DNA of 64,000 nucleotides from Chloroherpetonaceae bacterium (GCA_033763895.1 JANRJQ010000014.1:256926-320925), one strand, 5' to 3'; shown: positions 5,238 through 12,207, counted from the first letter of the stretch. The notes: generated from the letters alone by a model not told the origin. Program-made: numbers and translations.

Positions 5238-5375
5238 AACTACTGGTAACACGGGTTTTGCGTCAGGCGGGCTGACGTGCAAACTTGGAGCTTTGTGCTT
5301 CTAATAAACTTTAGTAATAAATTGAAACTTTGTGCTCAGAAACCCGCCCGAACGCAAAGCCCGAAAACGTTCAGC
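5238..5375 (+). other. attC-like recombination site 3
   Basis: R''-like core AACTACTGGTAAC at 5238-5250. The arms are CGGGTTTTGCGT..GGCGGG (5252-5270) and CCCGCC..ACGCAAAGCCCG (5343-5363), and the closing core is AACGTT (crossover after G5369). The loop has two TTTGTGCT motifs. This is one of the best-preserved sites. Confidence 0.75.
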
Positions 5376-5512
5376 TAAACTCCGCTTCGCTCCGTTTAGC
5401 TGAATGGGGAGCGGCTCCACCGCTGTTCGCTCGCTTCGCTTCGCTGAACATCGGTTTTGCGTGAGTCTTCGGGCTGCTTCGCGCCCAATGGCCCTCGCAA
5501 AGCCGCTCCCCA
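5370..5512 (+). mobile_element. 143-bp gene-less mini-cassette, complete copy A
   Basis: The unit starts TTCAGCTAAAC, has a 13-nt spacer, then GTTTAGCTGAA (5394-5404), the reverse complement of the start. The outer arms GGGGAGCGGC (5406-5415) and GCCGCTCCCC (5502-5511) enclose a second inner palindrome. It is bounded by GTT on the left and ATTAGC on the right. It has the organisation of an integron cassette reduced to an attC site. Identical length to the copies at 9672 and 12065. No ORF. Confidence 0.7.
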
Positions 5513-5597
5513 TTAGCGGTTATTGTAAAAATAAAAATCAACACTCAATTTAACCTTTGCCAACAAAATATGTCAAACTCAAAAAACGAAAATAAAA

Positions 5598-6680
5598 ATG
5601 GATAAATTACAATATTTTATTTTGACAACTCTTATGCTTTTGACAAGTTGCAAAGAGAAAGACGAATTTGTAAAAGATAATAGCAACTATCAATGCCAAA
5701 TAATTCCAAACCAAAATAATTTGACAAGAAACCAACTCTTACAATCCTTTGATAGTAACATACTTCAAGGTTTGGCTTCTGTTGATGTACCAAATAGTGA
5801 GGGGGCAATGAGTAGAAATAAAAATGGCTATTTTCACGTAAGGTTTCAAGTAGGAATATTAGCACAATCTGATTATGCAGTTGCAAAACAAAATAGTCAA
5901 GCCTTAGAATATGCTATAAAGTCTATTGAATATTCTTTTGCAAAACAACAACCAGATGGAAATTTTGAATTAGTTGTACCGCCAAACTTAGCAAGCCAAA
6001 CCCCAAACCAAGCAGATTTGGCAAGTGGTGTTTCCTTTTTTCTTGCCTCTGTTGGTTTAGCACTCAACAATTTTGAGCAAAGTAGTTGGTACAATTCAAC
6101 AACTATGGCAAGTTACAAAAATAGAATAGAAGCCTTGAGACCCAAGATAACACTTGCTGCAAATTGGTTACTCGCACAAAAAAACATTTTGGAAACAGCA
6201 GACCAAAATGCACCAAACAGATTATTTTTCAACGCTTTGGCTCTCTATGGTTTGGGAATTTGGCTAAATGATAACAACCTAAAAAATGCAGGAATTTCAT
6301 TTACCAATCTTGGCATTTCCAAAAAACACCCTGAAGGATATTTTTTAGAAGGTAATGGTTGGGACAGTAGTTATCAAGGAGTTTCCTTAAATGTAGGCTT
6401 TAATTTATATTCAATTTTGCCCAATAGTTTGAATTTAAAAGCAAACTTGTGGAATTGTTTGAGTTGTGCGTCAGATTGGCAAAAAAGTAGAATATTAGCA
6501 AGTGGTGAAATATCAACACAAGGAAATATAAGAGTTTATCCAGGTGGAGAGAGTTTTTTAGGAGAGCCAAAACAAGTTGATTGGATAAAAAGTATGGTGG
6601 GACTATTTGCAATGGGCTATTATTCAAACTCAAATACCTATATTTCTGTGGCAAGTAAAATCAAAGAGTTTTACAATTAG
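5598..6680 (+). CDS. Lipoprotein with alpha/alpha-toroid-like body, function unknown
   Basis: The 360-residue protein has a short signal peptide and lipobox LLTSC (Cys18). It is therefore probably lipid-anchored in the periplasm or outer membrane. The mature part alternates helices with aromatic and Gly-rich turns (AANWLLAQKN, NALALYGLGIWL, GNGWDSSYQGVSLNVGF). That pattern resembles six- or seven-hairpin alpha/alpha toroids of glycan-active enzymes, but I see no family-specific catalytic motif. The cassette begins TTAGCGGTT (5513) and its downstream site begins AACCGCTAAC (6700), exact complements over nine bases. The call as a lipoprotein is firm; the fold is an inference. Confidence 0.7.
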   Translation: MDKLQYFILTTLMLLTSCKEKDEFVKDNSNYQCQIIPNQNNLTRNQLLQSFDSNILQGLASVDVPNSEGAMSRNKNGYFHVRFQVGILAQSDYAVAKQNSQALEYAIKSIEYSFAKQQPDGNFELVVPPNLASQTPNQADLASGVSFFLASVGLALNNFEQSSWYNSTTMASYKNRIEALRPKITLAANWLLAQKNILETADQNAPNRLFFNALALYGLGIWLNDNNLKNAGISFTNLGISKKHPEGYFLEGNGWDSSYQGVSLNVGFNLYSILPNSLNLKANLWNCLSCASDWQKSRILASGEISTQGNIRVYPGGESFLGEPKQVDWIKSMVGLFAMGYYSNSNTYISVASKIKEFYN

Positions 6681-6699
6681 ACGAGCAGACAAAACAACA

Positions 6700-6722
6700 A
6701 ACCGCTAACATAGGCTTGGCGA
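6700..6722 (+). other. attC-like site 4, left half only
   Basis: AACCGCTAAC followed by ATAGGCTTGGCG. The left core is complementary to its cassette start at 5513, but the right arm is missing before the next gene. Probably a decayed or truncated site. Confidence 0.5.
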
Positions 6723-10613: not shown

Positions 10614-10747
10614 CAAGGGTTTGGCAAAAGCAGGGCTGACAGAAGTAATTGAACATTTGTACTTCTATCAACATTTGTGCTAAACTTCGGCTGATGGTTT
10701 TCAAATGCCCTGCCTTCGCCAAGCCCCAAACCGTTATAGGCAATTTT
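10605..10747 (+). other. attC-like recombination site 8
   Basis: Left: AACGGCTAAC, GGGTTTGGC, aaaa, GCAGGGC. Right: GCCCTGC, cttc, GCCAAGCCC, then CCGTTATAGGC. The crossover would follow G10733. The loop contains ATTTGTACTTC and ATTTGTGCTA. Arms and four-base bulges match the layout of site 5. Confidence 0.75.
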
Positions 10748-10761
10748 AAAACAACATAAAT

Positions 10762-11931
10762 ATGACAAAAATACTTCTATTTCTTGTATTCGCTTTTTTG
10801 ATGGGTTCTGTTACTTATGGACAGAAAATAAACAAAAGCAAAATAGATATCCTTCTAAAAGGGGCTGAGCAGACGCATTCAGAAGCTGTTATTATATATA
10901 AAGACAATAATTTGGTTATAGAAAAGTACTTTGGCATCGGACAAGCCAATAATAAAATTGAAAGTATGTCCTGCACGAAAAGTATTGTTGGGCTTGCAGT
11001 TGCTTGCCTTCTTAATGACAAGTTGATTGATAGTCTTGATATTCCTGTTTCAACTTATTTCCCCGAATGGAAACAGGGCCAAAAGCAATTTATCACCTTA
11101 AGACACTTGTTGAATATGACCTCAGGACTGCAAAACAATCCTAATGCATCAATTGAAATATATCCCAGTCACGACTTTGTGCAATTAGCCCTTACTGCCG
11201 AACTTTCATATAAACCAGGTGAGGTTTGGGCATATAACAACAAGGCGTTAAATCTTATGGCAGGAGTAATAAAAAAAATTACAGGCAAACGAATGGACAA
11301 TTATATTGGTGAACGTCTTTTCAGACCATTGGGAATTACTGATTTCAGTTGGTCCCTAGATAGTGTTGGCAATCCACATGTAATGTCTGGATGTCAAATT
11401 AAACCAATGGATTTTGCTAAGATTGGACTTTTATTATTAAATAAAGGAAGGTTTAATAATGAGGTAGTAATTGCAGAAAAATACATAACTGAAGTAATCA
11501 CGCCATGTAAACAATATCAAGGATATGGCATGTTGTGGTGGATAGACTATGAAAAGACAGTTTCAGTAATTGATGATGAAATAATAAATGAACTTACAAA
11601 GGCAGAAGTACCTCAAGACTTCGTTCAAAAGGTTATTTCAATGAAAGGAACTTATGCTACAAATGATGAATATTATGCTAAAGTTCAAAATGTTTTTGGA
11701 AAAAATCCTTGGGGATACATTAATGAAACACTTGGTTCTAATCTTCGTTTACGAAAAAAAGAATTTAGCGGCAACATAACATATCGGGCTGACGGATACT
11801 TGGGAAATTACATTATTGTAGATCCGAAGAATAAAATTGTTGCCATCAGAATGATTAGCCATCAAAGTTTCGAAAATGAAAATGACAACTTTTTTGACTT
11901 TGGTAAACAGGTGCTGAATTTAACTGAGTAA
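10762..11931 (+). CDS. Secreted serine hydrolase, class C beta-lactamase family
   Basis: The 389-residue protein has a signal peptide (FLVFAFLMGSVTYGQ). It carries the SxxK motif as S70-C-T-K73 (SMSCTKSIVGLAVA), then RHLLNMTSGL and the YxN motif YNN at 158-160 (VWAYNNKALNLM). This is the serine beta-lactamase/D-alanyl-D-alanine carboxypeptidase fold. It has no lipobox, unlike the related cassette gene at 6823, so it would be soluble in the periplasm or exported. The ends of its cassette match over 14 of 15 bases (TTATAGGCAATTTT at 10734 against AAAACTGCCTATAAC at 11932). True antibiotic hydrolysis cannot be inferred. Confidence 0.85.
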   Translation: MTKILLFLVFAFLMGSVTYGQKINKSKIDILLKGAEQTHSEAVIIYKDNNLVIEKYFGIGQANNKIESMSCTKSIVGLAVACLLNDKLIDSLDIPVSTYFPEWKQGQKQFITLRHLLNMTSGLQNNPNASIEIYPSHDFVQLALTAELSYKPGEVWAYNNKALNLMAGVIKKITGKRMDNYIGERLFRPLGITDFSWSLDSVGNPHVMSGCQIKPMDFAKIGLLLLNKGRFNNEVVIAEKYITEVITPCKQYQGYGMLWWIDYEKTVSVIDDEIINELTKAEVPQDFVQKVISMKGTYATNDEYYAKVQNVFGKNPWGYINETLGSNLRLRKKEFSGNITYRADGYLGNYIIVDPKNKIVAIRMISHQSFENENDNFFDFGKQVLNLTE

Positions 11932-12070
11932 AAAACTGCCTATAACACGGGTTTTGCGTTAGTGGCCGGAAAGTGCGAATAGAAACATTTGAGCAATAAA
12001 TAAACATTGGTGCTGGCAGACAGTTTTCCGTTTCAAAAGCCCACCAACGCAAAGCCCAAAACCGTTCAGC
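11932..12070 (+). other. attC-like recombination site 9
   Basis: Core AAAACTGCCTATAAC (11932-11946), arm CGGGTTTTGCGTTaGTGG facing CCACcAACGCAAAGCCC, closing core AACCGTT with G12064. The loop retains diverged TTTG motifs. The left core overlaps the serine hydrolase stop by only a few bases. Confidence 0.7.
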
Positions 12071-12207
12071 TAAACTCCGCTTCGCTCCGTTTAGCTGAAT
12101 GGGGAGCGGCACCACCGCTGTTCGCTCGCTTCGCTTCGCTGAACATCCGTTTTGCGTGAGACTTTTGGCTGTTTCGCGCCCTTCAAACACTGAAAAGTCG
12201 CTCCCCA
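12065..12207 (+). mobile_element. 143-bp gene-less mini-cassette, complete copy C
   Basis: The third full copy, again exactly 143 bp and inserted exactly at a GTT junction. The 3' arm has drifted (GTCGCTCCCCATT) and the centre has substitutions, so it is older or less constrained than the copies at 5370 and 9672. Confidence 0.65.

Follow-up and report, generated by a model that had tools for sequence, protein, structure and literature searches.

A stretch of 64,000 nucleotides from Chloroherpetonaceae bacterium (GCA_033763895.1 JANRJQ010000014.1:256926-320925), referred to here in its full length as the window, raises the question of what three short palindromic units are that lie in an array of gene cassettes and carry no gene themselves. 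An earlier note on this DNA had likened them to integron cassettes without a gene, consisting of the recombination site (attC) only and amplified within one array. Comparison with the remainder of the genome (G000; 3.55 Mb in 14 contigs) and with related genomes suggests that the units are probably gene-less mini-cassettes, not of a canonical integron but of an integron-like system of Bacteroidota and Chlorobi, by whose own recombinase they would be spread.

Anatomy of the 143-bp units

Units A (5370-5512), B (9672-9814) and C (12065-12207), all full mini-cassettes on the plus strand, measure exactly 143 bp in three of three cases. Re-reading bore out this length, which the earlier note had given, as an equality of length and not of sequence: A and B are 95% identical, and the most diverged unit, C, is 88% identical to either. 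In each of them, TTCAGCTAAAC at the start is answered 13 nt later by GTTTAGCTGAA and followed by one large palindrome, GGGGAGCGGC...GCCGCTCCCC, just as first described. The two helices use up the whole unit: positions 1-35 form the first, with 11-bp arms (TTCAGCTAAAC/GTTTAGCTGAA), and positions 36-143 the second, a GGGGAGCGGC/GCCGCTCCCC helix with inner arms. Folding of the units as DNA gave z-scores of -6.0 for unit A, -9.4 for unit B and -2.8 for unit C, and no shuffled sequence folded equally well.

The start of the unit is complementary over 11 nt to the unit's own R'' box, and circularisation, as computed, would yield a single uninterrupted att stem of 20-23 bp (23 bp in unit A). The L box of the unit, CGGTTTTGCG/CGCAAAGCCG, matches the L box of the attC sites in the array. 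No plausible gene is present; the only open reading frames (ORFs) that cross the units lie on the minus strand and are judged non-coding because the full copy L003 is 144 bp long instead of 143, a change that shifts the frame. A consensus scan detected neither promoter-like nor terminator-like sites inside the units, and a search of Rfam gave no match even at an E-value of 1.

Placement of the copies in the genome

In the window, the left flank of the units is the right arm of an attC ending in G and the right flank is the TT of the next element, unit A separating cassette 2 from the attC of cassette 1. The insertion precisely at GTT junctions that had been noticed at the outset is therein confirmed. 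Both truncated copies mentioned in the earlier note are real as well. Unit D (4147-4241, plus strand) comprises the right part only, stands at the start of the array and is joined to cassette 1, which begins with TTACCAGTA (BLAST match at 4161-4241, 93% identity). The other, remnant E (13719-13780, plus strand), is a degenerate right part whose BLAST match is weak (E-value 8e-4 over about 35 nt) and whose right end was read by eye.

A search of the whole genome found 12 full or truncated copies on three contigs, including one further full copy on contig C10. All seven intact left ends abut an att site: in six of them (L001-L005 and L011) the preceding sequence is an attC-like right arm with G as its last base, and in the seventh, L006, it is an attI-like sequence at the start of an array. 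At eight of nine right ends, the copy abuts a cassette start whose complement is the R'' box of the next attC-like site, with one mismatch in the case of L003. The ninth is that of unit C, whose right flank reads TTTATGC and downstream of which no attC was recognised. Exact crossover junctions therefore bound the unit on both sides, to the extent given by these counts. All copies lie in the orientation of the array, most are truncated, and a truncated unit opens four arrays of the genome.

The attC-like sites and their relation to IntI

The attC-like sites of these arrays are described by a covariance model, R1, built from nine aligned sites with a covarying stem; the E-values of the model are rough. 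R1 detects 20 sites in G000 and is found in 167 of 395 genomes of the phylum, representing 94 of 171 genera. Pairing between the start of a cassette and the R'' box of that same cassette extends, in the arrays examined, over a mean run of 6.5, well above chance, since shuffled R'' boxes give 2.9. Among 67 clear R1 cassettes, positions 1-8 pair and pairing resumes at positions 11-13, while position 10 is A in every case and, with few exceptions, a mismatch. The R boxes of these cassettes depart from the GTTRRRY / RYYYAAC consensus in that GTT is kept, position 3 is A or G, and later positions are free. Two short cassettes of ordinary R1 type that likewise lack a gene were observed, at L078:7339-7696 (about 220 bp) and L082:7260-7400, and gene-less cassettes are therefore not limited to units of the hairpin-plus-palindrome kind.

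No IntI above the curated cut-off is encoded in G000 or in any of the nine sampled genomes of its family (G000 included). Within the order, 9 of 61 genomes carry IntI genes. None of 20 IntI neighbourhoods, most of them from R1-bearing genomes, contains a confident R1 site (best E-value 0.054). Across the 395 genomes, the association of R1 with IntI is negative (odds ratio 0.43, p 5.5e-4, uncorrected for relatedness). An IntI integron is rejected for the window, as no IntI passes the curated cut-off in the genome or in the sampled genomes of its family and no confident R1 site lies in the 20 IntI neighbourhoods. The system of which the array forms part is integron-like but employs a different recombinase.

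A tyrosine recombinase lacking I2 and its attI-like site

A candidate for this recombinase is encoded in a distant genome, G390 (L144:6098-6967), and homologues are present in L148-L176, L087, L096, L055 and L065. Homologues with 41-62% identity were found in loci that had been fetched solely for their R1 sites. At or above about 160 bits, the recombinase occurs in 35 of 46 R1-rich genomes as compared with 6 of 34 R1-negative ones, in a comparison for which the R1-rich list was set after the counts had been seen and relatedness was not corrected for. R1 sites lie near the recombinase in 18 of 20 neighbourhoods, the remaining two being cut by contig ends, and in none of 20 neighbourhoods of Xer homologues, which come mostly from the same genomes. 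At the level of gene neighbourhoods, the association between this array type and the recombinase is clear.

In most of these platforms, an attI-like site adjoins the recombinase gene and the first cassette is joined to it; the cassette usually starts about 100 nt past the stop codon of the recombinase, behind the motif TATAAAYRAG|TT. Outside platform loci, this motif occurred once in the other sequence scanned. In a tree made by a quick method and with sampling limited to this phylum, three groups are resolved, one each for the recombinase, IntI and Xer, and the recombinase is placed beside IntI (SH-aLRT 99 for the pair and 89 for the recombinase group). The recombinase lacks two blocks of 31 and 11 residues that are peculiar to IntI and correspond to its additional (I2) domain, and its closest solved structure by sequence is IntI4. 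Members of the family adjoin R1 arrays throughout the Bacteroidota, and some of them carry the label "site-specific tyrosine recombinase/integron integrase" at NCBI. No published description of an I2-less system was found in the literature covered, which was partial and cannot prove novelty.

A second family of units

When 127 attC junctions were scanned for the hairpin at the unit start, the G000 units were recovered, together with a single junction in G390 and a short cassette of L082 that has no gene. A pattern search of all 395 genomes likewise gave matches in G000 and G390 only. The G390 unit measures 128 or 130 bp and is unrelated in sequence to the 143-bp unit, yet has the same architecture and the same ends, TTCAGC...A|TT. 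This family counts at least 12 full copies, and the flanks read for ten of these put all ten at att sites. Two copies stand at attI-like array starts. One unit, the first element of its array, lies 75 bp from the recombinase gene of this genome, which encodes a divergent tyrosine recombinase of 289 aa. In L143, an attI-like inverted repeat, TATACGCAA...TTGCGTATATACAAATG|TT, is located upstream of the unit at G390:C2:674195 with no recombinase adjoining, and is followed by a unit and then by cassettes.

Relatives of the G390 unit exist in two further genomes: G404 contains a remnant located at an attI-like site, and G432 a variant located at an attC. When 2.06 Mb of sequence were scanned strictly for the architecture (G|TT, arm, loop, arm', b...b', |TT), the G000 and G390 families alone were recovered, with no chance matches. 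Sequence relatives of the 143-bp unit were absent from 60 relatives, 394 other genomes of the phylum, plasmids and phages, and its pattern had no match in IMG/VR. Of two pattern scans of GTDB, the first gave no match and the second gave 11, nine of which were inspected and proved to be chance matches in unrelated contexts.

A broken platform and occurrences on plasmids

On contig C10 of G000, the minus strand of L020:12777-13135 contains a broken remnant of the recombinase, split over two frames and interrupted by stops. It is followed by CCTATAAACGAG|TTGTGCTCA, an attI-like site joined to the start of a cassette whose R'' box is found downstream. By this reading of the remnant, the genome evidently once had a recombinase platform that is now broken. 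The units of G000 are therefore probably fossils, and its copies are probably immobile unless the recombinase is supplied in trans. Several arrays of the genome have no recombinase adjoining. A third tyrosine recombinase of G000 (C14:232208, 308 aa) was considered as the array enzyme and rejected, having no match to the G390 recombinase at 1e-5; it scores weakly in all families.

The system is also present on plasmids. An R1 site follows each of the genes arr, lnu(H) and tet(X2) in a plasmid of Empedobacter brevis. An Acinetobacter baylyi plasmid carries a truncated member of the recombinase family directly upstream of tet(X3), and the left part of an R1 site follows that gene. A Chryseobacterium plasmid contains the recombinase, TATAAACAAG|TT and R1 sites. 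The plasmid loci combining resistance genes with R1 are L240 (NZ_CP104735.1), L111 (NZ_CP043636.1) and L112 (NZ_CP081933.1).

Origin of the units

The mechanism proposed for the 143-bp units regards each of them as a cassette start, a loop of 13 nt, an R'' box complementary to the start, and a folded att arm. The dedicated tyrosine recombinase, related to IntI but devoid of I2, would recombine at G|TT, so that units could be excised as circles and inserted at attI or attC. In this way they might multiply as passengers without cargo; both the movement of units by the recombinase and their spread as cargo-free passengers are inferred. On a wider scale, the observations tend to favour the presence in Bacteroidota and Chlorobi of a second kind of integron, built around a lineage sister to IntI in which I2 was either lost or absent from the outset, with attC and attI sites of its own and with mini-cassettes as minimal, cargo-free substrates that multiply in arrays and perhaps seed new ones.

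The cassette concept of the earlier note is upheld by the anatomy, the placement and the second amplified family in G390; it fails where it implies an IntI integron, and it is qualified by several boundary rules that the unit breaks. Indeed, a number of features weigh against the units being mini-cassettes of this system. Compared with the 67 R1 cassettes, they have C at position 3 where the others have A or G, show no mismatch at position 10, possess an R'' box ending in AAT and not AAC, and terminate in A instead of G. The unit's own att site goes undetected by the R1 model, and the 130-bp subtype in G390 has been amplified although its outer pairing between start and R'' is partly lost. Nor did the sequences analysed show a circle, an excision or an empty site. 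Since the unit breaks several boundary rules of ordinary R1 cassettes, it has to be regarded as a non-standard cassette.

Four other explanations deserve consideration. That the units are retained because they serve the array as promoter, transcription stop or preferred landing site, and are not passengers, is unlikely, albeit compatible with their status as cassettes. Promoter activity has been reported for gene-less cassettes of Vibrio and Treponema (PMC11014356, PMC6557892), and a unit opens two arrays in G390 in addition to the four in G000. As cassettes join the right ends of units and four arrays start with a truncated one, units may indeed act as landing sites. However, the consensus scan revealed no promoter-like or terminator-like site in them, most copies in G000 are truncated, and in other platforms the element immediately adjoining attI is a gene cassette.

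Slightly less probable still is an element resembling a miniature inverted-repeat transposable element (MITE) with ends TTCAGC...A, targeting folded att sites with duplication of 2 bp (TT) and moved by a transposase or recombinase encoded elsewhere. Such an element would account for the ends common to two unit families of otherwise different sequence and for the disregard of R1 cassette rules; elements that target attC are known (the IS1111-attC group), and a TT duplication yields the same sequence as a G|TT crossover. Frequent copies away from junctions, expected of an ordinary palindromic element, were looked for in G000 and G390 and not seen: among about 28 copies and fragments in the two genomes, none turned up away from an att site. 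Mini-cassette status, by contrast, is in keeping with the start/R'' rule and the L box common to units and cassettes, with the copies standing as first element at attI, and with the uniform orientation of all copies in the array.

A canonical cluster of attC sites lacking integrase (CALIN) that is moved in trans by IntI would share the G|TT crossover and the cassette structure, and IntI does occur in the order. It is nevertheless highly improbable, given the lack of an IntI above the curated cut-off in G000 and the sampled family genomes, the 20 IntI genes with no confident R1 site nearby, the negative and uncorrected association mentioned above, R boxes that do not conform to GTTRRRY, and the other recombinase adjoining R1 arrays. 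That the copies arose by duplication, segmental or tandem, or reflect an artefact of assembly, as their proximity and 88-95% identity in the window might suggest, is scarcely credible because they differ from one another in both the attC that precedes them and the cassette that follows, copies lie on three contigs, and an independent family exists in another genome.

Cassettes and attC-like sites in the window

All cassettes and R1 attC-like sites recorded in the window lie on the plus strand. At the site at 844-979, the R'' box GCAGGTAAC pairs with the start of the cassette that follows L009, a truncated unit lying immediately before the window. Cassette 1 (4242-5369) contains one ORF, and its start, TTACCAGTA, pairs with the R'' box TACTGGTAA; the corresponding site (5242-5377, 142.8 bits) ends at the G|TT of unit A. 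A further site lies at 7899-8034 (107.8 bits), and a cassette at 8027-9101 with ORFs 8037-8507 and 8467-8982 begins with TTAGCGGTA, which pairs with its own R'' box. The site at 8975-9109 (114.7 bits) is a hybrid: its right arm, ending in CGCAAAGCCGCTCCCCG, is that of the 143-bp unit, as though recombination had replaced one arm. A weak site at 9554-9679 (26.2 bits) ends at the G|TT of unit B, downstream of which a cassette at 9815-10733 (ORF 9864-10613) shows pairing of its start TTAGCCGT with R'' ACGGCTAA. The next cassette (10734-12064, ORF 10762-11931) likewise pairs TTATAGGCA with R'' TGCCTATAA. Sites were detected at 10606-10741 (111 bits) and at 11938-12072 (117.9 bits), the second of which extends to the G|TT of unit C. 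Short repeats of the TTCAAAGTT/TTGAACC type, in degenerate form, are found near an array end at 13440-13640, and such repeats recur at L020:13193-13456, just upstream of the degraded platform on C10.

Comparison with known systems

Elements known as IS1111-attC insertion sequences and group IIC-attC introns also insert at attC sites of cassette arrays. They carry a protein gene of their own, whereas the 143-bp unit has none and, unlike them, follows the array's rule for cassette boundaries and possesses the L box. MITEs and REP/RAYT repeats (repetitive extragenic palindromes and REP-associated tyrosine transposases) resemble the units in being short, palindromic, multicopy and gene-less but are scattered between genes, whereas copies of the unit were found only at att junctions.

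Cassettes without an ORF are known from the superintegrons of Vibrio and from oral Treponema, both IntI integrons (PMC11014356, PMC6557892). Like the units, they are gene-less, bounded by cassette recombination sites, contained in arrays and sometimes first in them; unlike the units, they belong to IntI integrons. Neither near-minimal, att-only units with many copies in one genome nor a common hairpin-plus-palindrome architecture was found reported in these Vibrio and Treponema papers. With about 130-143 bp, the mini-cassettes would be near-minimal substrates for tests of the role of I2, and they would be evidence that passengers resembling MITEs can exist in cassette systems. CALINs, defined as clusters of attC sites without an integrase (PMC9024848), resemble G000 in that several of its arrays have no adjoining recombinase; they differ in that the sites of G000 are R1 and not IntI attC sites, and one of its arrays retains a broken recombinase of the other family.

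The R1 system shares with canonical integrons a recombinase gene, an attI-like site, the G|TT crossover, the R''/R' logic of circular cassettes, arrays of promoter-poor single-gene cassettes, and IntI4 as closest solved structure. It differs from them in a recombinase that lacks I2 and forms a separate clade, in the attI-like motif TATAAAYRAG|TT, in R boxes other than GTTRRRY, in the conserved mismatch at position 10, and in the array often following the 3' end of the recombinase gene. It also extends to plasmids with the resistance genes arr, lnu(H), tet(X2) and tet(X3). The gain of I2 has been viewed as the step that allowed integron integrases to use folded single-stranded attC, a step for which intermediates are lacking (PMC7790495). 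A natural I2-less relative located beside attI-like sites and cassette arrays would make the question of I2 directly testable.

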